DNA from: a virus | Reading direction: 5' to 3' (one strand) | IMG/VR virus record: IMGVR_UViG_3300005577_000009 | Span: 1-49,853 of that record | DNA: 49,853 nt | Shown here: positions 2,093 through 34,416 of the stretch, in pieces | Layout of the letters: every line of letters starts with the position of its first letter | Position numbering within the stretch: position 1 is the stretch's first letter | Translations under genes and position numbers: made by a program | The notes under the pieces: generated by a model | Told to the model about the DNA's origin: nothing | The model's input: the letters and a program-made list of their open reading frames with translations, nothing else | Database searches by the model: none

Positions 2093-2223
2093 ACAGTGTC
2101 ACCGCGAGGCGAGCCACGGCCCGCGCGGCTGAGTCATAGCCACGTTGCTATGGCCCAAGCGCCCGAGTCGTCGCGTTTACTCTCTGAGCGGAATTGCCGC
2201 TCTGGGAGCTAGTGGAGGTATTG

Positions 2224-3150
2224 GTGGAACTGGAGACCAAAACAGGGGTAAGCACGCAGCTGGCCACGTCGCCAGCCATCCTGGGGACGCTGGAGAGTTT
2301 CAGCGCGAGCTTAGCTGGGCGCAAGGTGCGGCCGCGCACGATCGCAACCTACCTGAAGGTTGTGACACGGTTTGCGCTGTGGTTGGGCGACGAGTCGGCC
2401 ATCGCTGATGTGAGCGCTGATAGCATCGGGCGCTATCAGATCACGCGCGGCGAACTGGCGGCGGCGACGATCGCCAAAGACTTGAGCGGCATTCGCGCCT
2501 ACTGCCGCTGGTGTTTGCGCGCGAAACTGCGGGGCGATGATCCGACACTGGATCTGGAGTGGCCCAAGCGCACCGAGCCGGTGCCAAGGTTCCTGAAAGC
2601 GCGTGAGTTGCGCTTGCTCGAAAGCATCCTCGATCGGCCACTACCGGTGCTCAACGTGAAAAAGCGCCATGTGCTGTTTCGCCACAATCGCGCGATCTTG
2701 CTGATGCTGTACTGCGGACTCAGATCCTCAGAGGTGCCAGATCTCGACTGGAAGGACGTGGATCTGGACGAAGAGACACTGATCGTCAGGGACGGCAAGG
2801 GCGGCAAGGATCGGGCGCTGCCGATTCATAGTCGCGTGCTGGCCAATTTGGCCGAGACGCCTGAGGACAAGCAAATAGGCGCGGTGTGTGGACACCTCGA
2901 CGGCACAAAGATGCGCAACACCAGCATGCCACACATCTTCAGTGAACGTTATCTGAAAAGCTTTGGACTCGACATTTCGGCACACATGCTGCGCCACACC
3001 TTCGCGATCCAATTGCTCCGCGCCGGCGCGGACATTCGCCAGATCCAGCTGCTGCTGGGCCACGCGAGCTTAGAGACAACCCAGCGCTATCTTGCTTTAG
3101 ACTTCGATGATAAGAAGCGCGCGATCGACAAGCTCCCAGACCGGTTCTAG
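2224..3150 (+). CDS. int: Tyrosine recombinase / phage integrase
   Basis: A XerC/D-like site-specific recombinase that would insert the phage at attB and, with an excisionase, remove it. The start is taken as GTG at 2224 because GGAGG is at 2214-2218; reading could begin at TTG 2194. Counting from 2194, an N-terminal SAM-like core-binding domain spans about residues 30-115 and the catalytic domain about 130-315. All catalytic residues are present: Arg177 (CGLRSSE), Lys in GKGGKDR (202/205), His264 and Arg267 (HMLRH), His290 (LLGHAS) and Tyr299 (TQRYLAL). It stands alone on the plus strand between divergent and unrelated genes, as usual for a temperate phage. Confidence 0.95.
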   Translation: MELETKTGVSTQLATSPAILGTLESFSASLAGRKVRPRTIATYLKVVTRFALWLGDESAIADVSADSIGRYQITRGELAAATIAKDLSGIRAYCRWCLRAKLRGDDPTLDLEWPKRTEPVPRFLKARELRLLESILDRPLPVLNVKKRHVLFRHNRAILLMLYCGLRSSEVPDLDWKDVDLDEETLIVRDGKGGKDRALPIHSRVLANLAETPEDKQIGAVCGHLDGTKMRNTSMPHIFSERYLKSFGLDISAHMLRHTFAIQLLRAGADIRQIQLLLGHASLETTQRYLALDFDDKKRAIDKLPDRF

Positions 3151-7078: not shown

Positions 7079-7723
7079 ATGGCAATCCGTCTCGAACTCG
7101 CTGACGACCGCGCGCTGGACTGGGCACAAGCTCAAGTCAGCGCGCACCACTATCTGCATACGCCACTCGATAGCCGCTGTTCGGTGCTGGGCTACGTCGT
7201 GATGTGGCACGGTGAGCGCATGGGCTGCCTGCTGTTTGGGAGGCCCGAGGCAACGCGCTGCTACCAGGGCGCGCTCACCTATGGCAGCCAGGCGGATGTC
7301 ACGAGCGGCCGCGCGCGCTTCGATCGCTGGGAGATTATCAATCTGGCGCGGGCGTGGCTCGATCCGTCGTGCGCCCAGTGGGGGCATGGCTGGCTGGCGA
7401 CGTGGGCAATGGCGCAAGCGCTCAGGCGCGTCGTTGTTGATTATCTCCACGAGTACCCACCGTGCTACCTGGACGAGCCGTGGAGGCTGCGCGTCTGCCT
7501 CAGCTACTGCGATACGCGAATCCATAGCGGCACGATCTACAAGGCGGCCGGCTTCCAGCTCGCGCGCACGAACGAGAGCGGTATCCAGACGTGGTATCGG
7601 CCACTGCGCGGCTTGCAGGGCGCTGAACGCAAGCTGATCGAGCGCTTTGCCACGCAGAACTACCGCAGTCGCGTGTACCGCTCGCAGCGCGCCGCACAGG
7701 CGATCCAGGAGGTGCTGTTATGA
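7079..7723 (+). CDS. Mom-like / GNAT-fold protein, putative DNA modification
   Basis: A 214-aa protein with the layout of Mom-like acyltransferase-fold proteins: HHYLHTPL near residue 23, a strand pair GYVVMWHGERMGCLLFGRP, an RAWLDPS motif near 91, and the diagnostic end SYCDTRIHSGTIYKAAGF at 142-159. Mu Mom converts adenine in phage DNA to a bulky derivative and shields it from restriction. If this protein works in the same way, it would protect the phage genome. DUF4338-type proteins share the final GT-x-Y-x-A-x-x-F pattern, so the family call is tentative. The next gene overlaps its stop (ATGA). Confidence 0.5.
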   Translation: MAIRLELADDRALDWAQAQVSAHHYLHTPLDSRCSVLGYVVMWHGERMGCLLFGRPEATRCYQGALTYGSQADVTSGRARFDRWEIINLARAWLDPSCAQWGHGWLATWAMAQALRRVVVDYLHEYPPCYLDEPWRLRVCLSYCDTRIHSGTIYKAAGFQLARTNESGIQTWYRPLRGLQGAERKLIERFATQNYRSRVYRSQRAAQAIQEVLL

Positions 7724-11481: not shown

Positions 11482-12030
11482 ATGGCACTGAACAAAAAAC
11501 AGGTTGCGTTCGTTGAATTTTATTTAACGCACTGGAATGCGACGAAGGCGGCGATCCTCGCGGGCTACTCTGAGCGATCGGCGCGCTCAATCGGCAGCGA
11601 GAACCTGACAAAACCTGACATTCAGGCCGCAATTCAGGAGCGTCTCGCCGAGCTGAAAATGGGGGCCGATGAGGTATTGACGCGGCTCAGCGACCAGGCG
11701 CGCGGCTCGGTCGCTGTCTTCATTGATATCAGCGAGCCCGACGCCGAGAGTAAAACGCCCGAAACAATGGACGAGGCGCATGCGATCTACAGCGGCTGGC
11801 GACTGAACTTAGCTGCGGCAAAGAAAGCCGACAAGCTGCACTTGATCAAGAAGCTGAAGAGCGGGCAGTGGGGGCCAGAGATTGAGCTCCATGACCCCCA
11901 GGCCGCGCTGGCGCTGCTGGGCAAGCATCACAAGCTGTTCACTGACCAAGTAGAGCATAGCGGTAGCGTTGATGTCAAAGGCTACACCCATGTTAGCCCC
12001 GATGATTGGGACAAGCCAGGCGAAACGTAA
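11482..12030 (+). CDS. terS: Terminase small subunit
   Basis: A 182-aa protein of the Terminase_2 family, which recognises the packaging site and feeds DNA to the large subunit. The N-terminal signature is clear: LNKKQVAFVEFYLTHWNATK, then AAILAGYSERSARSIGSENL. A long helical middle and an acidic tail follow. Its 3' end overlaps the large-subunit gene by about 60 bases, the usual arrangement. Confidence 0.9.
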   Translation: MALNKKQVAFVEFYLTHWNATKAAILAGYSERSARSIGSENLTKPDIQAAIQERLAELKMGADEVLTRLSDQARGSVAVFIDISEPDAESKTPETMDEAHAIYSGWRLNLAAAKKADKLHLIKKLKSGQWGPEIELHDPQAALALLGKHHKLFTDQVEHSGSVDVKGYTHVSPDDWDKPGET

Positions 12031-13270
12031 TGTGATCGCGGTGTTCGATCCGCTACCATGGCAGATCGCACCGTGGCGTGATCAGTCGTCCGTCGTGCTC
12101 TTGACTGGCTCAGCCGGCGGCGGCAAGTCTAGGGTCTGGGGCGAGAAGCTGCACGGCTACTGCCTAAAGTATCCCGGTGCATTTGCCCTCCTGGTACGCA
12201 AAACGCGCGTGAGTCTGACCAAGGGGTCGTTGCTGTTTCTCAATGAGACCGTGATCGGCAATGACCCGCGCGTGCGCCAATACGAGAGCAAAGACTACTT
12301 TCGCTACCGCAACGGCTCAATCCTGGCCTATATGGGACTAGAAGACAAAGAGCAGCGTGAGCGGCTAAAGTCGATTGGGCCAAAGGGCGGTGTGGATATC
12401 GTCTGGGGTGAAGAGGCGACCGAGCTTGAAGAGGCTGATCACAATGCCCTGCGCGCCCGCATGCGCGGCAAAGCAGCGCATTGGCGACAGATCATGTATT
12501 CGTGTAACCCCGACGCGCCAACGCACTGGATACACAATCGGCTCATCGTGGGCGGTGAGGCCAAAGTGTACTACTCGGGTCGGCAGGACAACATCTATAA
12601 CCCTGCCGACTATGACGCGACGATGAACAGCCTGACCGGCATCGAAGATGCGCGGCTGAATAAAGGGCTATGGGTGCAGGCGTCGGGCATCGTGTACGAT
12701 GTATGGAGCGACGGGCCTGACGACGGCAATGTGACCGAGGCGGCTGAGTATATCGATGGCGGTGGTGTCATTCTCTGGGGCGTCGACGATGGCTACACCG
12801 GCAAGGTCGATCCGCACACCGGACACTATACCGGTGACAGTCACCCGCGCGTCTTTGGCCTGTACCAACTGCGCCCCGATGGCACGCTTAACCGATTCGC
12901 AGAGAGCTATGCCATTGGCATCTTGTCGGACGCGCATATTGATCAGGTGCTCGAATTGCCGTATCCTGTTCCTGACATCGCAATAGTCGACAAGAGCGCG
13001 GCCGAGCTGAAGGGCCGGCTCCACGCCAAGGGCATTTACACCCGTAACAGCCCGAGCGATGTCGAAGAAAGCATCAAAGAATTACGGAGCGCGCTGGCGA
13101 AAGACCGAAACGGGCGGCGGCGCGTGTATGTGCATCCGCGCTGCAAACACTTTCGCAGTGAGATGGCCAGCTATCGGCGTGACAGCGTAAGTGGCAAGCC
13201 CATCAAGCAATTTGACCACGGGCCGGATGAGTGCCGATACGTGGTCTGGTCACAAAGGTTCGAGCAATGA
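11972..13270 (+). CDS. terL: Terminase large subunit
   Basis: A packaging motor ATPase-nuclease of about 432 aa. Walker A is GSAGGGKS (46-53), Walker B lies around VDIVWGEEA (141-149), the coupling motif is SCNP (177-180). The RNase H-like nuclease has Asp272 (GVDDGYTG), Asp340 (IAIVDKSA) and an acidic pair near 415-419 (FDHGPDE). The exact start is uncertain: ATGs at 11972, 11990 and 12002 are all possible and none has a strong ribosome site; it overlaps terS. Confidence 0.93.
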   Translation: MSKATPMLAPMIGTSQAKRNVIAVFDPLPWQIAPWRDQSSVVLLTGSAGGGKSRVWGEKLHGYCLKYPGAFALLVRKTRVSLTKGSLLFLNETVIGNDPRVRQYESKDYFRYRNGSILAYMGLEDKEQRERLKSIGPKGGVDIVWGEEATELEEADHNALRARMRGKAAHWRQIMYSCNPDAPTHWIHNRLIVGGEAKVYYSGRQDNIYNPADYDATMNSLTGIEDARLNKGLWVQASGIVYDVWSDGPDDGNVTEAAEYIDGGGVILWGVDDGYTGKVDPHTGHYTGDSHPRVFGLYQLRPDGTLNRFAESYAIGILSDAHIDQVLELPYPVPDIAIVDKSAAELKGRLHAKGIYTRNSPSDVEESIKELRSALAKDRNGRRRVYVHPRCKHFRSEMASYRRDSVSGKPIKQFDHGPDECRYVVWSQRFEQ

Positions 13271-15348
13271 CCGACATGATCCCCACCGCCATCCAGGGCG
13301 ACACGCAGCTGTACCCAAACGGCGCGGTGTTTGGCCTCGCATTCCCCTGGATGTACAGCCAGCCGAGCTACACCGATCTGCCGGCCTACTGGTCGCCGCG
13401 CCGCGACTGGGTGTTGAGTAACACGCCGAAAAAGGAAGATATGTGGGCCGCCGCCGTGGCCACCGCGACGACCAAGTTCGCAGCGCACGGCTATGTCATC
13501 AAAGACAGCCAGGACAGTGCGCGCAAGGTTTCGGCTAGTCAGCAGCTCATGAAGCGCGCGAACGGCGGCGAGGGCTGGGTGCTCTTTGCGCAGAAGATCA
13601 TGCGCGATCTGCTCACGACCGATAACGGTGTGTTCATTCGCATTCAGCGCGACAATGACGAGGTCACGAAGATCCGGGTCAAAGAGACCGTGGCCGGCGC
13701 GGAGACCGGCGGCTTTGCGGAGGCGGCAGTCACGAGCACGCGGCCGGGCGCGAAGATCACCGGCCTCTATCACCTGGATAGCCTGCGCTGCACGCGCACC
13801 GGCCACCTCGTGTACCCGCTGCGCTACCGCCCCGTGATGGGCGTCGAGCAGATCTACCGCTGGGACCAGGTGCTGATGTATGCTGACCAGCCATCCCCGC
13901 GCGCCGAGCTGTACGGTATCGGCGAGTGCGCGGCCAGTCGGGCGTATAAGACCATTAGCAAGATAGCAGGAATGGAGCAACTCGAATACGAAAATATCAC
14001 CGGCGGCGGCGCGAATAAGCTGGTGTTCCTCCAGGGCATCAACGACGCCACGCTGCAATCGATCCTGAAGAGCGGCGAGGCCGACGCCTACGCCAAGGGC
14101 TTGGTCTACTACCTTGGTACGATTATCGGCGCGATCCCCAGCGACACGCCGATCACCATGGTCGAGGTCAAGCTGAAGGAGTTGCTCAGTAACTTCGTGC
14201 CGAAAGATGAAAGGGACAACGCCTACCTGATCTACGCCAACAACATCGGCGTGCCGGTGCAATCTATTCAGCCGCTGTCAGGCCAGGGCCTTGGCACCGG
14301 CACGCAAACGCTGGTGCTTGACGACGCGGCCAAAGGGCAGGGCGCGATGCCGGCGTTTATCAAGTGGTGGGAGCAAACTGTATCCGATCGCGTGCTGCCG
14401 ACCACGACGGAGTTGCAGTTTGAAGACGAAAACGACCAGCGCGACCAAAAGGCCAAGGCGGAAGTACAGAAGCTACGGGCCGATACACGATCCGTACAGA
14501 TTCAGTCTGGAGAAATCAGTCCGGCTATTGCGCGACAGCTTGCGGTCGATTCGGAGGACTTACCCCCTGAGCTGGTCGAAAATGACGCGACGGCCGGCGG
14601 CCAGCTGAGCGACGATGAAAAGAAGGCACCCGAGCAGGGCGCAATCAACCCAGCGATGCTGGCGCTGATGCAGAGCGCACCGACCGCAGCGCCGGCCAAG
14701 CAGCCACAGCCGGGGCTGGCGACCGCAACCAAGGACGCAGGCCATACCGGCGTGATGATCGCGCTGTATCCTGATGCGCGAGCGGCCAAGCAGATCGCGG
14801 CGTCAGCCGGTGTCACAGAGCCTGTTGATGAGATGCACCTAACGCTGGCGTTTTTGGGCGATAGCAGTGAGACCGCACTGGCCACGAATAAAGACAAGGT
14901 GGTCGAGGCGGTCAAGCAGTGGGCTATCGAAAAGGGCATGGCGCTCAAGGGCACGATCAATGGACTGGGGCGCTTCTTTCACGCGGAAGACGACGAGACC
15001 AACGCGGTCTACGTTTCGCCCGATGTGCCAGGACTCCCCGAGCTGCGCCAGTCACTGGTCGAGTGGATCGAGCGGTCAGGGTTTGACTATGCTCAGAACC
15101 ACGGCTTTACGCCGCACATCACCGTGGCCTATGTGCCACTGAAAGCACCGACGCCAGACATCCGGATTGAGACGCCGGTCGCGTTCAATCAGGTAACGCT
15201 GGCATGGGGCGATGAGCGGTTTGATTTTCCTTTGGGCCGTGGTGTTGCGACCAAGGACGCGGCCGACGACGACGCGGCCGCGCTGCTGGAGTCGGAAATG
15301 ACATGGGCATTGAAGCTGGGCAGGGAGGCGGTGAAGCATCGTGAATAG
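13267..15348 (+). CDS. Portal protein fused to a 2H phosphoesterase domain
   Basis: A 693-aa protein starting in an ATGA overlap with terL. Residues about 1-440 are a phage portal: the helical wing, a LYGIGECAASRAYK segment near 215-230 and a QDQRDQK-like acidic end. A linker of about 50 residues (Ala/Pro/Gln-rich) follows. Residues about 493-658 form a 2H phosphoesterase (2'-5' RNA ligase-like) domain with both hallmark motifs, His524-Leu-Thr (MHLTLAFL) and His617-Ile-Thr (PHITVAYV). 2H enzymes open or cut cyclic and 2'-5' linked nucleotides; T4 anti-CBASS protein Acb1 belongs to this superfamily. Fused to the portal, about 12 copies would ride in each virion. The catalytic residues are intact; the substrate is unknown. 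Confidence 0.88.
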   Translation: MTDMIPTAIQGDTQLYPNGAVFGLAFPWMYSQPSYTDLPAYWSPRRDWVLSNTPKKEDMWAAAVATATTKFAAHGYVIKDSQDSARKVSASQQLMKRANGGEGWVLFAQKIMRDLLTTDNGVFIRIQRDNDEVTKIRVKETVAGAETGGFAEAAVTSTRPGAKITGLYHLDSLRCTRTGHLVYPLRYRPVMGVEQIYRWDQVLMYADQPSPRAELYGIGECAASRAYKTISKIAGMEQLEYENITGGGANKLVFLQGINDATLQSILKSGEADAYAKGLVYYLGTIIGAIPSDTPITMVEVKLKELLSNFVPKDERDNAYLIYANNIGVPVQSIQPLSGQGLGTGTQTLVLDDAAKGQGAMPAFIKWWEQTVSDRVLPTTTELQFEDENDQRDQKAKAEVQKLRADTRSVQIQSGEISPAIARQLAVDSEDLPPELVENDATAGGQLSDDEKKAPEQGAINPAMLALMQSAPTAAPAKQPQPGLATATKDAGHTGVMIALYPDARAAKQIAASAGVTEPVDEMHLTLAFLGDSSETALATNKDKVVEAVKQWAIEKGMALKGTINGLGRFFHAEDDETNAVYVSPDVPGLPELRQSLVEWIERSGFDYAQNHGFTPHITVAYVPLKAPTPDIRIETPVAFNQVTLAWGDERFDFPLGRGVATKDAADDDAAALLESEMTWALKLGREAVKHRE

Positions 15349-15511
15349 GCACGACCGTTACGCAATGCTGTATTGGGCGTTGCTTCTTTCAGCGGCGCTT
15401 CTTGGGGTCGCGCTGGGCTTTCGCGAGTTTCGCTTGCTGGGCTATCTATTCGTCGCTGCCTGTATTTTTAAGCTACTCACCGAGTGGCTAGAAGCGCGTA
15501 GCGATGCCTAG
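15341..15511 (+). CDS. Small membrane protein between portal and head genes
   Basis: A 56-aa protein from GTG 15341 (MNRHDRYAMLYWALLLSAAL), with two hydrophobic segments, about residues 8-27 and 34-50, separated by FREFR. It overlaps the portal stop and the start of the next gene by 8 bases each. A membrane protein inside the head operon is unusual. It could be a holin-type or exclusion factor. Confidence 0.5.
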   Translation: MNRHDRYAMLYWALLLSAALLGVALGFREFRLLGYLFVAACIFKLLTEWLEARSDA

Positions 15512-17107: not shown

Positions 17108-19654
17108 ATGAGCGACACCGCACCACAACCAAGCCCCGCACTCCACGGCCCGGGCGGCCTGCTCGCGACCCCCGGCCTGGCTGCGCCCAATCGCAAACGT
17201 AAATGGGGATTGCGACTCAAAGCGAAGCAGATCGTCGGCAATTTGTACCGCAGCGATACAGGCAAGTTTCAAGCGGGCAGCGGCAGATCTCCAGCGGGCG
17301 CGACGCCACAGCGCGGCCGCCAGCTGAGCAAGCAGCCCAAGCCCACGGCCAAGCCTATCAAGGCCGCGCCTAAGCCCAAGGGTCGCGCCGGTGGCAAGGG
17401 CCGCGCGAAACCCACGCCCAAGCCCACGCCCGAGCAGCGCCAAGCCGAGCGGGATGCCGCCAGCGCGGCCAAGCAGACCGCCAACCGAAGCGCGGTGAGT
17501 GATGCCTTAGCGAATGCTGATGCGAGTCTTGGGCCGAGCGGAGCGAAAGCGGTGCTGGCTGCCGCCGATGGCGGCCCGATCGATAAGGCGATGGGCGCGC
17601 AGCTCCAGACGCTGGGCTACGCTCAGCAGAACCCGGACGGCTCGTACCGCCTGACGAGCGAGGCGCGCGCGCTGGCCAGCGCGGCCAATCGCGGCGACAC
17701 GAGACAAGCGCTTGATGCCGATGGCCGCGCACAGGAGCGGGCGAAAAAAGCGGCAGACACGAGCGCCAAAAAGCCGGCCACAGCTGCGCCCGACAAGAAG
17801 CCCACTGGCCCAGCAGGCGCGCTTGACGCGATCGCCGGCAAACTGACAAAGCCTGCCAAGCCAGCAGCCAGCGGCGGTGGGAGTAAGAAGCCAGCCGAGC
17901 AGCCTGACAAGGCTGCTGAACGCGCCAGACGGGCCGACGCGACCGCTAGCCAGATCGGGATGGCCGCGCCAGATCTCGCGGCACTGCGATCGGCGACCGA
18001 AACGGGCGGCGTGCAAAACGATGCGCTCTCGAAGCTGGGGCTCGTCGGGCCTGACGGACTCGCCACCGACCAGGGCCGGCGCGCATTGACCGCGCTGGAA
18101 CGCGGCGACGTGCGGCAGTACAACGCGGCGCTGCAGGACGCCAAGAGTCGTATGGGCCGCGAGCAAGGCGCGCGTGATCGGCAGCAGGCGGTCGAAGGTC
18201 GCAGGAGCGCGGCCGAGCAGCTGCGGAGCCGTAAACGCAGTCAGCAGATCGAGCGCATCAAGCGCCGCGCGATGGCAGGCGGCAAGCTGACGCAATCGCA
18301 GCTCGACCAGGCGACCGAGGCGGGCGCGCTGGATGCCAGCGGGCGCTGGAAGTCGTTCACCGTCTTCAAAGATCATGCTGGGCAGCCGCGCTGGATTGCG
18401 CGCACGACCACCGCCTACCGCGATCGTGACGACGAGATCATCAGCGAAGCCGCGCTCGACGAAGACAGCCAGCGCATGATGCGAACGAAGCAATTCGGCC
18501 CGCTGCGCTACTGGCATATTGGCCAGCCCGATCCCAGTAACCTGGAGGCACCATGGGGGCCGGGGGTCGATATCGGGACATGCGATTACAGCGTGGTCAT
18601 CGGCCGCACACGGATCGAGAGCGGCACCTTTCACAGCGCCGCAATTGCCCGCAAGATGGCGGCGGTCGCGCACCGGCACGAGATGTCGCCGGGCTTTTTG
18701 CACCCAATCGACGCGCCCGACAGCGATAAGGTCTTTCATTCTATTCACACGTTTGAGCGCAGCCCGGTGCCCACGCGCTATGGCCGCGGGTCGAACCTGT
18801 TTACTGGCTTTACGGTCAAGGAGTGTCGCATGGAACTTTCCGAGATGGAGCGCCGCTTTAAGGCGATGTACCAGGAGCTGGGCCTCACGCCTGAGCAGGG
18901 ACTTGAGCTGGGCCAGAACCTGATCGCGACCGAGAAAGCGGCAGCCGCGCAAGGGATCGCCTTCAAAAGCGACAGACAGCCCTATACCGGTGATGTGCTA
19001 TCGGCGATGGGCGAGCCGCAGCCGGTGTACGTTGCTGCCGATGGTACGCAGGGCATGATCATCGACGGCCTTTTTTCTCCGCTGTCGCTGGCGCTCAAAG
19101 CCTTCCCACCGAAAGCCGACGAGCCGACCGGCGACGCGCCAGCAATCGAAGCCAAGGCCGACGATCCGATGGAGGCGATCGCCGAAGAGGTCGCGCCGAT
19201 GGACGAAGAGCCGAGCTATGACGCGATCGGTGATATGACGCGCGAAGAGTTCAGCGCGTTTCTGTCTGAGCTGCTCGCGCCCGTGCTGAAAATGCAGGAT
19301 ATGGTCAAGAGTATTGGCGACGCGCACGCCGAGCTGAAAGGCATGTACGGCGGCGCAGCGACCAAAGAGGCCGGTGTCAACGCCGAGTTGGCCGCGCTCA
19401 AATCACAGCAGGCTGAGCTGGCAAGCAAGATCGCGCAGATCGAGGGCGACCAGCCCAGTGTGATCTTGCCTGACGACGTAGCCGCCGCGCTGAAAAGCAC
19501 CGGCCCAGCTGCGCCGCCCGATCCCGATAAGGTCGAGGTTCCCGACGACCCGAACCGGCCGTTCGCCCAGATCGCCGCGCGCACGATGCCGGCGCTGTAC
19601 AAAAACACGCCCGACGGTGGCTTTGCCGGATGGGCACCGCCGCCATCGACATAG
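17108..19654 (+). CDS. Capsid maturation protease fused to scaffold-like regions
   Basis: An unusually long (848 aa) prohead protease. Order: N-terminal peptide with HGPGGLLATPGL (residues 13-24), a very Ala/Lys/Pro/Arg-rich segment (about 45-270), helices, then the protease core about 415-575 (RTTTAYRDRDDEIISEAALD, WHIG with His470, MSPGFLHP with Ser527, FERSPVPTRYGRGSN), then an acidic scaffold-like region with a coiled coil about 740-780. His470 and Ser527 are the probable catalytic pair by analogy with HK97-type proteases. The C-terminal part would act as the internal scaffold. The start has no clear ribosome site and lies just behind a hairpin. Confidence 0.8.
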   Translation: MSDTAPQPSPALHGPGGLLATPGLAAPNRKRKWGLRLKAKQIVGNLYRSDTGKFQAGSGRSPAGATPQRGRQLSKQPKPTAKPIKAAPKPKGRAGGKGRAKPTPKPTPEQRQAERDAASAAKQTANRSAVSDALANADASLGPSGAKAVLAAADGGPIDKAMGAQLQTLGYAQQNPDGSYRLTSEARALASAANRGDTRQALDADGRAQERAKKAADTSAKKPATAAPDKKPTGPAGALDAIAGKLTKPAKPAASGGGSKKPAEQPDKAAERARRADATASQIGMAAPDLAALRSATETGGVQNDALSKLGLVGPDGLATDQGRRALTALERGDVRQYNAALQDAKSRMGREQGARDRQQAVEGRRSAAEQLRSRKRSQQIERIKRRAMAGGKLTQSQLDQATEAGALDASGRWKSFTVFKDHAGQPRWIARTTTAYRDRDDEIISEAALDEDSQRMMRTKQFGPLRYWHIGQPDPSNLEAPWGPGVDIGTCDYSVVIGRTRIESGTFHSAAIARKMAAVAHRHEMSPGFLHPIDAPDSDKVFHSIHTFERSPVPTRYGRGSNLFTGFTVKECRMELSEMERRFKAMYQELGLTPEQGLELGQNLIATEKAAAAQGIAFKSDRQPYTGDVLSAMGEPQPVYVAADGTQGMIIDGLFSPLSLALKAFPPKADEPTGDAPAIEAKADDPMEAIAEEVAPMDEEPSYDAIGDMTREEFSAFLSELLAPVLKMQDMVKSIGDAHAELKGMYGGAATKEAGVNAELAALKSQQAELASKIAQIEGDQPSVILPDDVAAALKSTGPAAPPDPDKVEVPDDPNRPFAQIAARTMPALYKNTPDGGFAGWAPPPST

Positions 19655-19694: not shown

Positions 19695-21104
19695 ATGCCT
19701 GGAACAATGCCAGCCCTTTCACCCGACGCCGTTCAGATGATGAACTGGCTGGCGTCGGCATCGGTCGCGACCAAAGACGCCGGGACATCCGCCGGCACAC
19801 CCGTACACGGCCCCGGTGGGCTACTCGGCTACCCTGGGCTGAACAAGCAGATCGTCAACGCGATGATCATGCCCAAGGGCATCGCCGGCCGCATCCCGGT
19901 GATGAAGTCGACCAACACCAACGAGCTGTACCCGATTCTGACGGGACAACTCGCGTCGACCGGCAACGAGCCGACCGCCGCATGCGCGGACTGGCCAATC
20001 GTCGGCGCGTTCAAGACCTGCACCCAGACGTTTCCCTTCGGTCAGCAGGGGCGGATGTCGCAGGTGCTGAACATCAAGTACGCCGGCCAGACCATCAACC
20101 GGGGCGAGTTTCGCGACAATGTGCTCTTGGGCACGCCCGGCGGCGACCTCCCCACGCCCGGCCCGATCAACTGGCAGAAGATCTTTCAGACCGAGTACGA
20201 ATATAAGATCGCCGAGCTGTTCAACGGGTACGCCCGCGACTATGCGCGCAATGTCTACACCGGCAACGCGCAGACCACCGCCGGGAGCCTTGGCTACCAG
20301 CAGTACAACGGCCTCGATCGACAGATCCGCACCGGCAAGGTCGACGCGCGCAGCGGCGCGGCCTGCGCGGCGGTCGACAGCTTAGTCGTCGATTTCAACG
20401 GCGCGAGTATCAACAGCGCCGGCGGCACCATTTACGCGCTGCTGGCGAACGCGGTCAACAACATGGAGCGTTTGTCAGAGCAGCTGGGCCTAGAAACCAA
20501 GTGGGTGCTCTCCATGCGCTACGGCGCGTGGCTGACTTTGACCAGCATCTGGCCGTGCGTCTACGCGACCAGCGGCTGCCCCGGCACGATCGTGCATACC
20601 GCGTCGCTCGAAGAGCAAACCCGCATGCGCGACCAACTGCGAAGCACGCGCCGGCTCCCGATCGAGGGGAAAGACTACGAGATCGTGATCGACGACACGA
20701 TTACCGAGACGGTCGCGGCAGGCGGCGTGGTCGGCACGTACCAGAGCGACATCTACATGCTGCCCATGACGGTCAATGGTCAGCCGTCGCTCTTCTGGGA
20801 ATACTTCGACATGAACGCCGAGGCGGTCGCGGCGGCCAGCCGGATGGCACCGGGCGGCTTCTTCGATGTGCTGGATAATGGGCGCTTCCTGTTCAGTCGC
20901 CTGTCACCGACGCACACCTGTGTGCAGGTGGAGATCGTGGAGCGGCCGCGGCTCATCCTGCTGACGCCGTTTCTCGCGGCGCGCTTCCAGAACTTAAAAT
21001 ATACGTATTCCATTCACGAAAGAGAATGGGATCCAGCGTCAGGTTACTTCGTCAACGGTGGATCGCCCACAAGTGCCTTGCCCTACTTCTATCCGAACGG
21101 ATAA
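19695..21104 (+). CDS. Major capsid protein, HK97 fold
   Basis: A 469-aa protein behind AAGGAGACC. The position after the protease, high expression-type ribosome site, length, and the pattern of a long N-arm, an E-loop-like region (TQTFPFGQQGRMSQVLNIKY) and a beta-rich end (FFDVLDNGRFLFSRLSPTHT, then ERPRLILLTPFLAARFQNLK) fit an HK97-type shell protein. Residues 38-49 (HGPGGLLGYPGL) repeat the motif seen at the N terminus of the protease. This segment lies in the part that is normally a delta or N-arm region. Confidence 0.85.
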   Translation: MPGTMPALSPDAVQMMNWLASASVATKDAGTSAGTPVHGPGGLLGYPGLNKQIVNAMIMPKGIAGRIPVMKSTNTNELYPILTGQLASTGNEPTAACADWPIVGAFKTCTQTFPFGQQGRMSQVLNIKYAGQTINRGEFRDNVLLGTPGGDLPTPGPINWQKIFQTEYEYKIAELFNGYARDYARNVYTGNAQTTAGSLGYQQYNGLDRQIRTGKVDARSGAACAAVDSLVVDFNGASINSAGGTIYALLANAVNNMERLSEQLGLETKWVLSMRYGAWLTLTSIWPCVYATSGCPGTIVHTASLEEQTRMRDQLRSTRRLPIEGKDYEIVIDDTITETVAAGGVVGTYQSDIYMLPMTVNGQPSLFWEYFDMNAEAVAAASRMAPGGFFDVLDNGRFLFSRLSPTHTCVQVEIVERPRLILLTPFLAARFQNLKYTYSIHEREWDPASGYFVNGGSPTSALPYFYPNG

Positions 21105-21934: not shown

Positions 21935-22189
21935 ATGGCAGAGAAAGTACCAAGCGTAGGGCGTGTGGTGCATTTCATGTACGGTGGCGTACATGTCCCA
22001 GCGATCATCACTGATCCGGCGTTCTCGGTGAAAGAAGAGGGCAAGCCAGATTGGACAGGGCAAGCGCTCACCGTTTTCTTACCAGCTGCGCCGCCTTTTA
22101 CGACTGTCGCAACGCACCAGGAGGAAATCGCACCAGGGACATGGAACAACGCAACTTGGCACTGGCCGGAATACGTACCAGACAAGTGA
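21935..22189 (+). CDS. Conserved small phage protein
   Basis: An 84-aa protein from ATG 21935 (GGAGG upstream). The pattern GRVVHFMYGGVHVPAIITD, ...LTVFLPAAPPF, ...GTWHWPE-like (TWNNATWHWPEY) is that of a widespread small phage protein found near capsid genes, of unknown function; the fold appears all-beta. It is followed by the first glycosyltransferase in a GTGA overlap. Confidence 0.7.
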   Translation: MAEKVPSVGRVVHFMYGGVHVPAIITDPAFSVKEEGKPDWTGQALTVFLPAAPPFTTVATHQEEIAPGTWNNATWHWPEYVPDK

Positions 22190-23244
22190 CAACGCCACTC
22201 GTCAGTATCATCATTCCCTGCGGCCCACGTCACGCGGATCTCGCGCGCACGGCGGCGGCCAGCGTGGTATGGCAGAGCCTGGCTGCGCAGTGCGAGACGA
22301 TTATCGCCTGCGATGGCGGCGCGGTCGTTTCGCCGATGGACAATGTCACGATCCTGCCCTCAGACGGCGAGCGGCGCGGGCCTGCCCACACCCGCAACCG
22401 TGCGCTCGCCGCCGCGCGCGGGGCGTTCATCTTGCCGTTGGACGCCGACGACTATCTGACACCGCACGCGGTTGAGAATTTACTGCGCGAGTACGGGCGC
22501 GGCGGCGCGGGCTATGTCTATGGCGATACGTACACCTTAGAACGCGATGGGCGACACATGCTCAGGCCAGCGCCCGACTACGTGCAAAATCATATGGCGC
22601 ATCACAACATTCATGTGGTCACCGCACTGACGCCGACCAGGCACTGGAGACAGGTCGGCGGCTGGGATGAGGGCGTTGATGCCTGGGAGGACTGGTCAGG
22701 ACACCTGCGGCTCGCAATCGCCGGGGTGTGCGGTCGGCGGCTGCCGCAGCCAGTCTTTACGTACCGGGTGTACGAGGGCGACCGCATGACGCAGTTTTAC
22801 GGCGGCGCGGCCGAGCTGATGGAAAAGGTCTTAGTCCGCTATCGTAATGCACAGGGGGTGATTCCAATGGCTTCATGTTGTGGTGGCGACGCTGATCTGA
22901 TTGACATTGCGCAGAGCGCGGCAGCGGGCGCGCCACTGTCGCCGGCGGCACCGATGGAGGGGAACAAGGTCAGGGTCGAATATCTGGGCGAGGAAAAAGG
23001 CTCTCAGACCTGGGACTACCCTGATCGGCACAGCGCGATTCGGCTGGGCAACAACACGATCGACCGCTACAAGGACGTGACCGTCGACCAGGCCGACTGG
23101 CTGAAGTCGATCGGCATCCCGATCCGCGTGGTGCCTACCTTCGATCAGCCTGACGCGCCTGCGCCGTTGCCGATCCTCAAACCGACCGACGTGCTCACAC
23201 CGGACGCTACGACCAAGGTGCTGCGTCCGAGGCGACCATCGTGA
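22186..23244 (+). CDS. Family 2 glycosyltransferase with extra C-terminal domain
   Basis: About 352 aa from GTG 22186, which overlaps the upstream stop (ATG 22141 is an alternative). Residues 1-230 are a GT-A inverting glycosyltransferase: VSIIIPCGPRHADLARTAAA, the acceptor-side GPAHTRNRALAAARG, and the metal-binding LDADDYL (86-88). Later WEDWSGHLRLA carries the usual ED/W catalytic region. Residues about 255-320 form a separate domain (VRVEYLGEEKGSQTWDYPDR, then RLGNNTIDRYKDVTVDQADW) that looks like the small beta/helix protein coded after capsid genes in many phages. It may tether the enzyme to the particle. Confidence 0.85.
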   Translation: MTTPLVSIIIPCGPRHADLARTAAASVVWQSLAAQCETIIACDGGAVVSPMDNVTILPSDGERRGPAHTRNRALAAARGAFILPLDADDYLTPHAVENLLREYGRGGAGYVYGDTYTLERDGRHMLRPAPDYVQNHMAHHNIHVVTALTPTRHWRQVGGWDEGVDAWEDWSGHLRLAIAGVCGRRLPQPVFTYRVYEGDRMTQFYGGAAELMEKVLVRYRNAQGVIPMASCCGGDADLIDIAQSAAAGAPLSPAAPMEGNKVRVEYLGEEKGSQTWDYPDRHSAIRLGNNTIDRYKDVTVDQADWLKSIGIPIRVVPTFDQPDAPAPLPILKPTDVLTPDATTKVLRPRRPS

Positions 23245-23915
23245 ACGTCGCCGCGATCATGCCCTGTCGCGGCCGCGCAGAGCAGACCGTACGCAACGTT
23301 AAGCGACTGCTGGCCACGGCGGGCGACGTGGACTGGCGCTTATATCTCATCGGAACACGAGAAGACATCATTCCGATCAATGGGCTGTCCGATTACGCAT
23401 CACTTGTGTCTGTACAGAGTAAGCGCGTGACGTATTGGGAATCTTTGAAGCTGATGACAGACGAAATCGATCGGACGCAGCGCCATCTGCAATCGAACCC
23501 AGTCAATCTGATCGTCAACCTCGCCAATGATGTGCTTCCAGGCCAGCACTGGCTGGCGCGTGCAGTCGCGGCACATCAAGAAACGTTTGGCAATTGGCCG
23601 GGCATGGTCGGCTTCAACGATGGCCATCACGAGACGGAACACAGCTGTCACTTTCTGATCAGCCGCAGTCTGCTCGACATGTACGGCGGCTGGCCGGTCT
23701 GGTACGACCACAACTTCGGTGACACGGAATTGTGTCAGCGCGCGATCGCCGATGGCCGGTACGTCAAAGCGCCGTGGGCCACGCTGTTTCACGACCATCC
23801 GTACTTTGGCGGCGCAGATGACAGCGTGTACGCCGAGGGACGCGCGCAGGCCGAGCGCGATCAGCGGCTGTATGAAGAGCGGAGGCGACAGGGATGGCCG
23901 ATGATCAGGAACTAG
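23241..23915 (+). CDS. Glycosyltransferase-like protein
   Basis: A 224-aa protein starting at GTG 23241 in a GTGA overlap. The start (VAAIMPCRGRAEQTVRNVKR), the VNLANDVLPGQHWL segment in the place of a DxD loop, and GFNDGHHETEHSCHFLISRS, ...GGWPVWYDHNFGDTELCQRA are typical of GT-A fold enzymes. It is shorter than usual. It belongs to the sugar cassette. Donor and acceptor are unknown. Confidence 0.75.
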   Translation: MNVAAIMPCRGRAEQTVRNVKRLLATAGDVDWRLYLIGTREDIIPINGLSDYASLVSVQSKRVTYWESLKLMTDEIDRTQRHLQSNPVNLIVNLANDVLPGQHWLARAVAAHQETFGNWPGMVGFNDGHHETEHSCHFLISRSLLDMYGGWPVWYDHNFGDTELCQRAIADGRYVKAPWATLFHDHPYFGGADDSVYAEGRAQAERDQRLYEERRRQGWPMIRN

Positions 23916-24052
23916 TGGTTACCGTATGGAAAGACGGCACGTGGAAGGCCTGGGGTGCGATGGATGCGTTTTATGCACAGTCCGATCCTGATTACCTGGT
24001 GACCATTCCGATCAAGGAAATGACGCCCAATGAACGACCAGCCGCTGACTGA
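23894..24052 (+). CDS. Short protein in the sugar cassette
   Basis: A 52-aa protein: MADDQELVVTVWKDGTWKAW, then GAMDAFYAQSDPDYLVTIPI. GGAGG stands 8 bases upstream. The W-x-D-G-T-W-x-x-W strand pair suggests a small beta fold. It overlaps both neighbours, so it is translated with them. Confidence 0.55.
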   Translation: MADDQELVVTVWKDGTWKAWGAMDAFYAQSDPDYLVTIPIKEMTPNERPAAD

Positions 24053-24593
24053 TGCCGAGCGCACCCTACCGCCGCACCTGGGTGGCCATTTCGGGAATAC
24101 GAATGTCGACACCGCGACGCTGGGCTATCTCATTGAGCGATACGGCATCGAAACGATGCTGGATGTCGGCTGCGGGCCAGGCGGGATGCTTGATGAGGCA
24201 AAGCGACAGGGACTGATCGCGATCGGGGTCGACGGCGATCCGCATATGGCGACTGAGGATGTGATCACGCACGACTACACGATGGGGCCGCTGCCGTCTG
24301 AGCACTTCGATCTGATCTGGTGTGTCGAGTTCGTCGAGCACGTCGAGGCCGAGTATATTCCGAACTTTCTGGCGACGTTCGCAGGCGGGAAAATCCTGTT
24401 TCTCACCGCCGCGCCGCCGGGGTTCCCTGGCCATCATCACGTCAACTGTCAAGAGCCGCAGTATTGGATCAGTCTACTGGAGCAGCACGGATGGACACTG
24501 GACACAGAGGCAACGCAGTGGGTCAGAGCAAACGGCGGGCACCCGTTCTCAACGCGGCAGGGACTAGTCTTCGTTAAAAATCAGGCGCGGTGA
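24030..24593 (+). CDS. SAM-dependent methyltransferase
   Basis: A 187-aa class I methyltransferase (Methyltransf_11/23 type). Motif I is MLDVGCGPGG (43-52), motif II the acidic GVDGDP near 66-71, and the post-II region is FDLIWCVEFVEHVEAEYIPN. The final GHPFSTRQGLVFVKN matches the beta-7 end. In this context it probably methylates a sugar or a glycosyl acceptor. A DNA-methylation motif (DPPY/NPPY) is absent. Confidence 0.85.
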   Translation: MNDQPLTDAERTLPPHLGGHFGNTNVDTATLGYLIERYGIETMLDVGCGPGGMLDEAKRQGLIAIGVDGDPHMATEDVITHDYTMGPLPSEHFDLIWCVEFVEHVEAEYIPNFLATFAGGKILFLTAAPPGFPGHHHVNCQEPQYWISLLEQHGWTLDTEATQWVRANGGHPFSTRQGLVFVKNQAR

Positions 24594-31042: not shown

Positions 31043-31271
31043 CCCGCCGTCGGGCGCGTTTGGGTTTGCAGCCGAGTACGAGCTGCTCAGGGTCGCGCGC
31101 TGGCGCGGCTACACCTGGGAACACTTCGACAGTCTTGAGAGCGACACGCAGGCGCTGATTGTTGCCGAGTATCGGATCGAGCAGCGTTACCAAGCCGTCG
31201 ATAGCTGGGCCAATCGGCCAAAGAAGGATCATGGAACAGGTCGGAATCAATCTCATCGCCGGCGGCGCTGA
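30479..31271 (+). CDS. Tail assembly chaperone, long frameshift form (gpGT-like)
   Basis: The +1 frame opposite the end of the short form is open to 31271 and codes a well-formed domain: FNPTYKGKPLFSPALDPPSG, FAAEYELLRVARWRGYTWEH, FDSLESDTQALIVAEYRIEQ. No start or ribosome site precedes it. A +1 slip at ACC TTT CAA (30992-31000), TTT to TTC, would join the frames to give about 263 aa. Tail chaperones use such programmed frameshifts widely, usually -1. The extension overlaps the tape measure start by 41 bases. Confidence 0.65.
30995..30998 (+). other. Predicted +1 ribosomal frameshift site (UUU-C)
   Basis: The zero-frame codon TTT (30995-30997) is followed by C, so a Phe tRNA can slip forward onto TTC, the same kind of slip as the UUU-C of influenza PA-X. 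After the slip the next codon is AAC and the frame stays open for 90 codons. Confidence 0.55.
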
Positions 31272-34200
31272 CGCCTATCTGCAAACGCTTAGTCAGGTCG
31301 CATCAGCCGAGACCAAGTTGGCCAGTGCTGCCGCGCCCGCAGTGGCGAGCATCAACGCGCTCGACGATGGCATGGCCTCCGCCGCTGCTGCGACCGATCG
31401 CCTGACCGGATCGTACACCGATGCCAACGGCCGGCTGCGCGATGCGAACGGGCGCTTTGTTTCAGCTGCCGATGCAGCCGAAATTCTCGGCAAACGAGCC
31501 GACGGCGCAGGCAAGGGCATCGACGATCTGGGCGCTGCCGCGCAGAAAGGCGGGAAAGCGAGCGAAAAACTCGGTGACGATGCCGAGAAGGGCGGCAAGG
31601 GGCTGAACGTACTCCAGCAGATGGCGATCGGGGCCGCGCGCAAGGTCGGCGAACTGCTGGTCAACGCGGCGCAGGAAGCCGGGCGCGCCATCCTCAAATT
31701 CGCGACCGATACGATCAACGTCGCCGGTGACTTCGAGGGCGACATGAATCGCTTCGCCTCAGTGACCGGCAGCGCGCTCGAAGAAAGCGGCCAGTCGCTG
31801 GAGCAATTCAAGGATCTGTTCATCAGTCTTGGCCGGGAGCTGCCGGTCAGCACGGCCGACGTGCAGCAGGCCGCGATCGAGATGGCGAAAGGCGGCATCG
31901 AGCCGGCCACGATCGCCGCCGGCGGCCTGCGCGATGTACTGAACTTGGCCGCCGCCGGTGAGGTCGGTATCGCGGAAGCGGCCGAGATTGCCAGCAAGCA
32001 ACTGGGCGTCTGGGTCGATAGCGCGGCCAGTGCGCAGGAGAAGGCCGCGTTCCTGAAAGACTCAGTCAACCTGCTGAGCCAGGCCGCGAATGCTTCGACC
32101 GTGGACGTGGACGATCTGGCGCTGGGTCTCGCCAACAGTGGCAAGTCGGCCGATATCGCCGGCCTGTCGTTTCGCGAGACGGTCACATCGATGGCGCTGA
32201 TCTCCAGTGGATTCAGTAGCGCCGCCGATGCCGGTACCAGCTTTAAGACGTTTCTTCAGCGCCTCACCCCCCAAGCGGACAGCGCCATTGATGCCTTCAA
32301 AAAGTTAAATCTGCTTACAAGCGAAGGTAAATCTAAATTCTACGACCAAGCTGGCGCATTCATCGGGATGGATAAGGCCGCGCAGCTGCTGCAAGATAGC
32401 TTGGAAGGAATGAGTGTTGCCGAGCGCAAAATGGCGCTCGATGCCGCGTTCGGTTCGGATGCTGTTCGCGCGGCTGGCATGCTGGCCGACGCTGGCGCGG
32501 ACGGCTACAGAAACATGGCCGAAGAGATGGCGAAAGCCGGATCGGCGGCGGTGCAAGCGGCCAAAAAGCAGCAGGGCTTTAACGTCGCGGTCGATAATAT
32601 GATGGGCAGCCTGCAGGCCTTTCAGATTACGGTCGGTAGTGCGGTGCTGCCGATACTCACCAAGCTGATGAACGTGCTGGCCAGCGGGATTAATGCGATT
32701 ACCGACTATGCCGATGCGACGATCAAAGGCGAGACCGCGCTGGCGTCGATCGCCAGCGCGATCGAGACCGGCTTCATGCCGGCAATTACTGGCGTCACTG
32801 CGGCCTTAGTCGCCTATGCGGTCGTGCAGACGGTGCAGGCGATCCCGGCGATCTACGCCTCTATCCCGGCGATCGCGGCGCAGGCAACCGCGTTTTACGC
32901 CAATGCGGCGGCGATTATGGCCGCGCTCGCGCCCTACGCGCTGATTGCGGTCGCAGTCGGCGGCGTGGTGCTGGCCTACAATAATTTCATCGGCAAAGTC
33001 CAGGCCGCGACTCAGGAGCTGCTGAGCAGCAAGCCGTGGTGGGAGGCATCAACCCTCGCGATCGAGGATTACGCGACCCAGACCGAGGGCGCGAAAAAGG
33101 CGCTGGAGCCGTACGCCGCGACGATCCAGGTGCTCAGAGATCAGATCCAGGGCGAGGTCGAGAGCTTGGGCAGGCGCCAAGCTGCGGGCATGCTGACGCA
33201 GGCGCAATACGAAGCTGAGATGAAGACCATTCAATCGCACCGTGATGGCCTGGTCGAAGTGACGAATGCCTATAACGACGTGTCACAGGCGATGATCGAC
33301 GAAGTCGCGCAGGGGATGACCGCAAGTAATGCAACGGTCACCTTAACCGATAAAATCAATGCGCTCGGTGAAGGCGTCGTATTGACCGCCAAAGAGATTG
33401 AGGAACTAGGCAAAAAAATACAGGAGAATGCCCAAAAGGGACAGGAGGCTGTTCAGTCCTACGCGACCACCTACAGCGAGTTTTCGACCGGCGTTGAGCA
33501 GCGCGCCAGCGAGCACGCCGATAAAATCGCTGAACTGGAAAAGAAGAAACAGGACGCCACGACCCAAGAGCAGAAGAAGGGTATCGACGAGCAGATCGCA
33601 CAGGTTGACCAGGCGTACGCCGATCAGGAGCAGAGCGCCGCGCTCTCCTATGCGCGTCAGCAGGAGGCGCAAAAGCAACATCTCGGCCAGATGCTGATTG
33701 ACTACACCGTTTCGCGCGCTGAACTGGGGCAAATCGAGAAAGAGAAAGCGGCCGAAATTACCGATGCCATTGCAAAGGAATACGGCATTCAAGAAAATCA
33801 GGTCGCAAGTACCTACCTTCGTATGACCGATTCAATTGACCAATTCTCGCAGGACGCCGGCGGCTCGATCGACAATCTGATCGGCGACCTGCGCGACCAG
33901 GGCCAGCAGGCGCAGGACACGCAGCGCAAAATGGACGACTACGCCAAAGAGTACGTCGCGACTCAAACCAATAATTTTGTCGACGGTAAGCAGGACGCCG
34001 ATGATTACATCGAGAGCCTAGAGCGCATCCCCAAAGAAGTAAACACCACGGTCACGACCACCTATCGCGACAGGCAGGACAATCGCGGCGACGACGCCAG
34101 CCAGCAGTCGCCTGGGCGCGCGAGTGGCGGCCCGGTCGAAGCGGGGCGCAGTTACCTCGTGGGGGAGCAGGGGCCCGAGCGCTTTGTGCCTGACTCGGAC

Positions 34201-34416
34201 GGCTCGATTATGACCGCGAGCCAGACCCGCCGCGCGTCTGCCAGCAGTGCGCAGCTGGGCAGCATGATGGGCGTGAGTAGCTACAACAATCAGACGATTA
34301 TCAACGTCGACGCGCGCGGGTCGAGTCTGACCATGGCCGATATCACGCGCGGCGTGCAAATCGGCCTGGACACAGCCGGCCGCAACGCGGATGTACAAGT
34401 GAGGAGCGGGGGCTGA
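31231..34416 (+). CDS. Tail tape measure protein
   Basis: A 1061-aa protein that sets tail length and is ejected with DNA. AAGAAGG precedes the ATG at 31231. A TP901-type core lies at about 180-400 (GDFEGDMNRFASVTGSALEE..., PVSTADVQQAAIEMAKGG). Hydrophobic segments lie about 505-590 (ITGVTAALVAYAVVQTVQAI, then ALIAVAVGGVVLAYN). Long coiled coils follow (EKKKQDATTQEQKKG...). The end has the usual GRASGGPVEAGRSYLVGEQG PERFVPD segment. By the rough rule of 1.5 angstrom per residue, a tail of about 150 nm is expected. Confidence 0.93.
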   Translation: MEQVGINLIAGGADAYLQTLSQVASAETKLASAAAPAVASINALDDGMASAAAATDRLTGSYTDANGRLRDANGRFVSAADAAEILGKRADGAGKGIDDLGAAAQKGGKASEKLGDDAEKGGKGLNVLQQMAIGAARKVGELLVNAAQEAGRAILKFATDTINVAGDFEGDMNRFASVTGSALEESGQSLEQFKDLFISLGRELPVSTADVQQAAIEMAKGGIEPATIAAGGLRDVLNLAAAGEVGIAEAAEIASKQLGVWVDSAASAQEKAAFLKDSVNLLSQAANASTVDVDDLALGLANSGKSADIAGLSFRETVTSMALISSGFSSAADAGTSFKTFLQRLTPQADSAIDAFKKLNLLTSEGKSKFYDQAGAFIGMDKAAQLLQDSLEGMSVAERKMALDAAFGSDAVRAAGMLADAGADGYRNMAEEMAKAGSAAVQAAKKQQGFNVAVDNMMGSLQAFQITVGSAVLPILTKLMNVLASGINAITDYADATIKGETALASIASAIETGFMPAITGVTAALVAYAVVQTVQAIPAIYASIPAIAAQATAFYANAAAIMAALAPYALIAVAVGGVVLAYNNFIGKVQAATQELLSSKPWWEASTLAIEDYATQTEGAKKALEPYAATIQVLRDQIQGEVESLGRRQAAGMLTQAQYEAEMKTIQSHRDGLVEVTNAYNDVSQAMIDEVAQGMTASNATVTLTDKINALGEGVVLTAKEIEELGKKIQENAQKGQEAVQSYATTYSEFSTGVEQRASEHADKIAELEKKKQDATTQEQKKGIDEQIAQVDQAYADQEQSAALSYARQQEAQKQHLGQMLIDYTVSRAELGQIEKEKAAEITDAIAKEYGIQENQVASTYLRMTDSIDQFSQDAGGSIDNLIGDLRDQGQQAQDTQRKMDDYAKEYVATQTNNFVDGKQDADDYIESLERIPKEVNTTVTTTYRDRQDNRGDDASQQSPGRASGGPVEAGRSYLVGEQGPERFVPDSDGSIMTASQTRRASASSAQLGSMMGVSSYNNQTIINVDARGSSLTMADITRGVQIGLDTAGRNADVQVRSGG

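Follow-up and report, generated by a model that had tools for sequence, protein, structure and literature searches.

A portal protein with a LigT/ThpR-like 2H phosphoesterase domain inserted in its tail as a putative exchangeable cassette

Introduction

The closest described systems are the phage fusions of Iyer et al., whose 2017 paper describes 2H phosphoesterase domains fused to MuF or portal proteins and suggests that they could be RNases or break down defence nucleotides (PMC5512222), and whose 2022 paper, in the passages concerned, repeats the proposal and adds packaging in the head and injection (PMC9503650). Acb1 of phages T4 and FBB1 is an anti-CBASS nuclease with a 2H fold, a small separate protein that carries an HxT/HxT tetrad and whose activity in T4 is seen about 15 min into infection (PMC9117128). 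Cellular 2H enzymes of the LigT/ThpR type, the RNA 2′,3′-cyclic phosphodiesterases drCPDase, Escherichia coli LigT and TT0787, stand alone and also carry two HxT motifs. For processing inside a phage head the nearest case is SPN3US, in which one protease cuts the capsid protein, the portal and itself at one motif, in a head that also holds ejected proteins (PMC10052503).

Here we analyse a portal–2H gene in a window of 49,853 nucleotides, the whole of the stretch of viral DNA taken from IMG/VR record IMGVR_UViG_3300005577_000009. A preliminary description of this gene had been made from its motifs; our results retain the fusion and its active site, and change the reading of its boundaries, its kinship and its novelty.

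The portal–2H gene and its 2H domain

The terminase genes (11482-13270, plus strand; TerS 11482-12030, TerL 11969-13270) match Pfam Terminase_2 (E 4e-28) and Terminase_3 (E 7e-13) and PHROGs 51 and 2. Directly downstream, beginning at the end of the TerL gene, lies a reading frame of 693 amino acids on the plus strand (13267-15348) that is open throughout, as previously described. It is made up of a portal body (residues 1-470, 13267-14676), a first A-T-K-D motif (residues 487-490, 14725-14736), an inserted 2H phosphoesterase domain (residues 491-660, 14737-15246), a second A-T-K-D motif (residues 661-664, 15247-15258) and a C-terminal helix (residues 665-693, 15259-15348), all on the same strand.

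The 2H domain is recognised at several levels. Residues 521-632 match the Pfam family 2_5_RNA_ligase2 (PF13563) with an E-value of 4e-10, better than the curated cut-off, and residues 486-657 match two PHROG families annotated as ‘RNA ligase’ (E 1e-24 and 1e-23). In an AlphaFold model built on 40 aligned sequences, most residues between 490 and 655 have a pLDDT above 90, and the structure prediction proposed earlier as a check does return a 2H fold; the high-ranking structures matched by this part in the PDB are 2H proteins (Z 10-17), which, together with two HxT/S motifs in an internally duplicated fold, places the domain in the 2H superfamily. The two catalytic motifs, H524-L-T526 (14836-14844) and H617-I-T619 (15115-15123), lie exactly where they had first been read. 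The extent of the domain, given before as residues 480-693, is trimmed to about 491-660, as the alignment, the tails of relatives and a helix in the model mark off residues 665-693 as a separate C-terminal portal helix common to relatives that have no 2H domain.

Across 49 aligned 2H homologues the invariant columns are H34, T36, G76, F80, P126 and H127, so that both HxT histidines and the first threonine are invariant, and the second threonine is present in at least 90% of sequences. The HxT pair is thus retained in homologues that possess the domain, and most portal homologues are without the domain as a whole. Purifying selection is stronger on the 2H part than on the portal part (dN/dS approximately 0.10 versus 0.21), and between the window and its relative L009 the 2H copies are 84% identical and the portals 76%. 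These observations support a portal–2H fusion whose HxT/HxT site is intact and subject to purifying selection, and in which the 2H domain, as its sequence suggests, is apparently catalytically intact and a putative enzyme.

Identity of the portal

The portal had been called recognisable from its motifs. In this form the statement does not stand, since residues 1-470 match no family in Pfam or PHROGs and a single-sequence search of phage records was also empty for the portal part; the assignment itself is retained on gene position, profile comparison and fold. When a profile built from 24 relatives was compared with one of accepted portals, the two aligned co-linearly across 304 columns with an E-value of 3e-6, compared with 0.3-0.9 for five column-shuffled controls and one reversed control. 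Comparing the family by hhalign with the single portals of Arthrobacter phage Laroye and of L052 gave no match, and only the multi-sequence profile succeeded.

As the portal part of the full-length AlphaFold model was of insufficient quality, an insert-free homologue (L016, 80% identical) was modelled instead, with moderate confidence (mean pLDDT 54). The best 50 Foldseek and best 50 VIA matches listed for this model were all portal, neck or connector entries, with a best Z of 12.2, which gives a portal fold at the moderate confidence of the model. Together with TerS and TerL directly upstream and the profile–profile match, this modelled fold indicates that the body of the window protein is a genuine portal. 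The alignment extends no further than residue 457 in 46 of the 50 VIA matches listed, which places the insert slot beyond the conserved portal body. In portals the crown points into the capsid, and the slot comes after the crown, so that about a dozen copies of the 2H domain should be built into the head, going by general portal architecture.

Kinship of the 2H domain and candidate substrates

The preliminary description named Acb1 of T4, along with 2′-5′ oligoadenylate phosphodiesterases, among 2H enzymes. Acb1 and the window domain do share the 2H fold and the HxT/HxT tetrad, but both profile and fold place LigT/ThpR enzymes nearer. For the 2H model, the top Foldseek matches are E. coli LigT (E 4e-8) and drCPDase; rotavirus VP3 and Usb1 come next, and AKAP18 and Acb1 are weaker. 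By VIA-align the best match is drCPDase (Z 17.1 over 161 residues, rmsd 3.3), followed by TT0787 (Z 16.5), E. coli LigT (15.3), rotavirus VP3 (13.9) and Acb1 (11.2). The profile comparison gives the same order, with an E-value of 3e-11 for a Pyrococcus LigT homologue and 0.005 for Acb1, which was thus not the closest sequence relative among the 2H proteins compared by profile. Among solved 2H proteins the nearest fold and the nearest profile are therefore both LigT/ThpR, and the modelled domain is nearer to this group than to Acb1, at a sequence identity of about 20%; it differs from the LigT/ThpR enzymes in being inserted into a virion protein.

The 2H fold leaves the substrate unfixed, and two specific activities have to be weighed. 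The first is an RNA-processing cargo, a ThpR-like 2′,3′-cyclic phosphodiesterase or a Usb1-like RNase that would act at an early stage of infection on RNA of the host or the phage, in repair or damage, and not on a defence signal. The position of LigT/ThpR as the nearest solved relatives and the closeness of Usb1 speak for it, and an RNase reading was also offered by Iyer et al. in 2017 (PMC5512222). However, a domain-family search of the window record, which may be incomplete, gave no match to RNA_ligase or RtcB (the search for T4-type ligases had no working control). The lack of these matches speaks slightly for a function other than RNA sealing, for which Iyer et al. likewise argue in the passages concerned (PMC5512222, PMC9503650), and with a fold that does not fix the substrate we regard RNA processing as unlikely, though less so than the second activity. 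The latter, hydrolysis of cyclic di- and trinucleotides as by the anti-CBASS enzyme of T4, would be in keeping with the shared superfamily fold and HxT/HxT tetrad (PMC9117128) and with the wide occurrence of 2H domains on head proteins. We consider it quite improbable, given the greater distance of Acb1 than of LigT in profile and fold (Z 11.2 versus 15-17) and the lack of a precedent for virion delivery in an activity that is seen from about 15 min after infection onward (PMC9117128). In the literature searched, no paper linked anti-CBASS, ‘2H phosphodiesterase’ and virion, and PADLOC returned no match. An anti-defence role in the broader sense, which the preliminary description had proposed, is one that we too infer.

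2H domains on other head proteins

A search for further portal–2H fusions, suggested earlier as a check, found them on several other portal families. The 2H profile scan of viral contigs gave 89 relatives. When 36 long 2H proteins were scanned, 22 matched the portal family phrog_2662 and 20 matched phrog_12, in overlapping sets; single 2H proteins matched the portal families phrog_113, phrog_64 and phrog_776, and others matched maturation proteases. In Laroye, a 2H domain and an XkdF-type protease are joined in one protein. Laroye gp18 and its relatives resemble the window protein in placing 2H on a protein of the head cluster, beside portal and MuF, but the partner of the 2H domain is a maturation protease there and a portal here. 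In four 2H proteins without a portal (L044, L057, L075 and L059), the domain is fused to proteins of phrog_760, a family of the head region whose function is unknown.

The portal–2H fusion had been presented as new in concept. This has to be withdrawn: the concept of such a fusion and of virion-borne counter-signalling is already published, with 2H on a portal and proposed packaging, injection and a counter-signalling or RNase role (PMC5512222, PMC9503650), and 2H occurs on the several other portal families above. What is new here is the anatomy, namely the cassette behaviour, the tail slot with its varied inserts and the paired flanking motifs. The passages on the fusions in the two papers describe no presence/absence cassette, multi-cargo slot or paired processing motifs (PMC5512222, PMC9503650), and the window portal family is unrecognised by Pfam and PHROGs.

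Gain and loss of the cassette

More than 20 distinct relatives of the portal, approximately 57-81% identical to the window protein, came from scans of viral contigs; they are mostly contig fragments, and the searches may omit records very near the window. Three complete portals carry a 2H domain, those of the window, L009 (77% identical) and L030, and a 3.1-kb contig filed under Kouleothrix aurantiaca (L025) ends just where a 2H domain begins. The contigs of 12 relatives without 2H in the portal, themselves fragments, showed no 2H copy elsewhere.

The clearest comparison is between L009, which has the 2H domain, and L019, which does not. Their portals agree at 97.6% of amino-acid positions and 91% of DNA positions, and the DNA of L019 is continuous at the place where L009 has 526 extra bases, a clean difference. 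Well-supported branches of the portal tree force at least three state changes (gain or loss of 2H), and the three 2H copies form one clade (support 100/95); the deep 2H tree is poorly resolved and was left out of any inference on ancient history. This distribution fits an exchangeable presence/absence cassette that close relatives would have acquired and lost. Pairs of almost identical portals, one with 2H and one lacking it, offer natural material for testing a virion-borne 2H domain against nucleotide-based defences. The stretch 3′ of the portal stop codon (15349-15503 in the window; L017, L018, L021 and L023) also varies among relatives, with different small reading frames, and makes a second variable spot beside the slot.

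The tail slot and its paired motifs

The 2H insert lies between two A-T-K-D-A peptides that start at residues 487 and 661. Unrelated short inserts occupy the same tail site in four relatives (L011, L017, L022 and L023). Two A-T-K-D-like motifs flank the insert in all seven filled slots, and all 17 empty slots have one such motif or none, a pattern that was written down post hoc, after the sequences had been inspected. The two copies in the window portal encode the same peptide with different codons. Between L009 and L019 the right-hand motif is unchanged, and the left-hand motif arrives with the cassette. The insert in the slot of L022 (GGVIDANKPYVVGSDSPEVIIPQLGSIV) is similar to a motif that lies toward the end of the tape-measure protein of the window (GGPVEAGRSYLVGEQGPERFVPDSDGSI; 31159-34416, at about residue 1000), and the portal slot may also accept peptides of the tape-measure type.

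The window proteins, 10,077 amino acids in total, contain four matches to [AST]TK[DE]A, all of them in the portal, a capsid candidate and a scaffold-like protein, and three to ATKD, compared with 0.18 in shuffled sequence. The candidate major capsid protein (469 amino acids, 19695-21104, plus strand), so named from position, size and sequence, has A-T-K-D-A-G at residues 25-30 (19767-19784), and K-D-A-G-T or K-D-A-G is kept at this place in every homologous N-terminus compared. The putative scaffold protein (848 amino acids, 17108-19654, plus strand), again named from position, size and sequence and possibly a maturation protease, has A-T-K-E-A near its C-terminus (19358-19372), where the lysine is invariant and K-D/E is kept among 12 homologues; in several relatives the motif is also found at its N-terminus.

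For the scaffold-like protein, ‘protease’ is a guess only: it gave no family hit, the family scan matched only PHROGs without function, in one or two members, and a profile comparison with one XkdF-type protease failed. The scaffold-like protein (17108-17180) and the capsid-like protein (19767-19850) have in common an N-terminal peptide, HGPGGLLxxPGL, which in several relatives is preceded in both by KDAG, as if the two proteins bore one recognition peptide.

One motif in capsid protein, portal and scaffold or protease is the pattern of prohead-protease substrates, and its presence here suggests a site of prohead processing, at which the 2H domain would be released within the capsid. SPN3US offers the closest likeness, with a motif common to the capsid protein, portal and protease that is cut in maturation; there, however, the cuts were shown by mass spectrometry, the motif is AXE and mainly N-terminal propeptides are removed (PMC10052503), whereas in the window a cut at A-T-K-D in the portal C-terminus is predicted from sequence.

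Proposed release and delivery

The preliminary description had the portal-borne enzyme act at the first moment of entry, or on RNA or DNA ends during packaging. Portals are not known to be injected themselves, and action at entry would therefore need a release step, absent from that account; for this reason we propose release at the two motifs. Starting from the observed fusion, the folds, the kept and constrained active site, the cassette behaviour and the motif pattern, we suggest that a genuine portal carries a LigT/ThpR-like 2H domain as an exchangeable cassette, held in a slot of the portal tail that can also be empty or take other short inserts, and that the domain would be assembled into the head as part of the portal, most likely as virion cargo for the host. 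Proteolytic release at the paired A-T-K-D motifs would probably be required for delivery, and cuts after both lysines would yield a free domain of residues 490-663, about 19 kDa. Once ejected, the freed 2H domain would hydrolyse host-defence signals or RNA ends, that is, cyclic or 2′-5′ oligonucleotides or 2′,3′-cyclic phosphate ends. We give this explanation as a whole a probability of roughly one half.

Repeated fusion of 2H to other portal families and to head proteases fits repeated selection for packaging in the head. In-head proteolytic release is a simple and testable answer to how a portal-fused enzyme could reach the cell, and the basis of that answer is the paired motifs at every filled slot and the same motif at the N-terminus of the capsid protein. 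Against the explanation, most relatives lack 2H, and the domain is thus not essential; no protease was confirmed in our searches, and the motif pattern is post hoc; and the way the cassette inserts could by itself have produced two copies of the motif.

This last point leads to a passive account, in which the portal tail tolerates inserts, the paired motifs are insertion scars and the 2H domain has its action, if any, within the head or at packaging and stays out of the cell. In favour of such an account, short inserts in which no enzyme is recognised occupy the same slot, and L009 and L019 have an identical right-hand motif, the left-hand motif being brought in by the cassette. The strong purifying selection, under which neither HxT motif has been lost, the repeated fusion of 2H to unrelated head proteins, and motif copies that keep their peptide while their codons differ all argue the other way, and make a merely decorative domain rather doubtful. 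Proteolytic release of a head-borne 2H cargo remains our preferred reading. A wider form of it, which we hold only tentatively, would make the portal tail a general protease-released cargo slot, in which whatever lies between two prohead cleavage motifs would be cut free in maturation and ejected with the DNA, 2H being one of several swapping cargoes.

Other genes in the window

A tyrosine-type integrase gene (2194-3150; PF00589, E 1e-29) indicates that the phage is probably temperate. A gene for a DNA-modification protein of the phage Mom family is found at 7079-7723 (PF25680, E 7e-8). Between the capsid-like and tail genes (22051-24593) lie two glycosyltransferase-like genes and one methyltransferase-like gene, possibly with a role in modifying the virion or the host.
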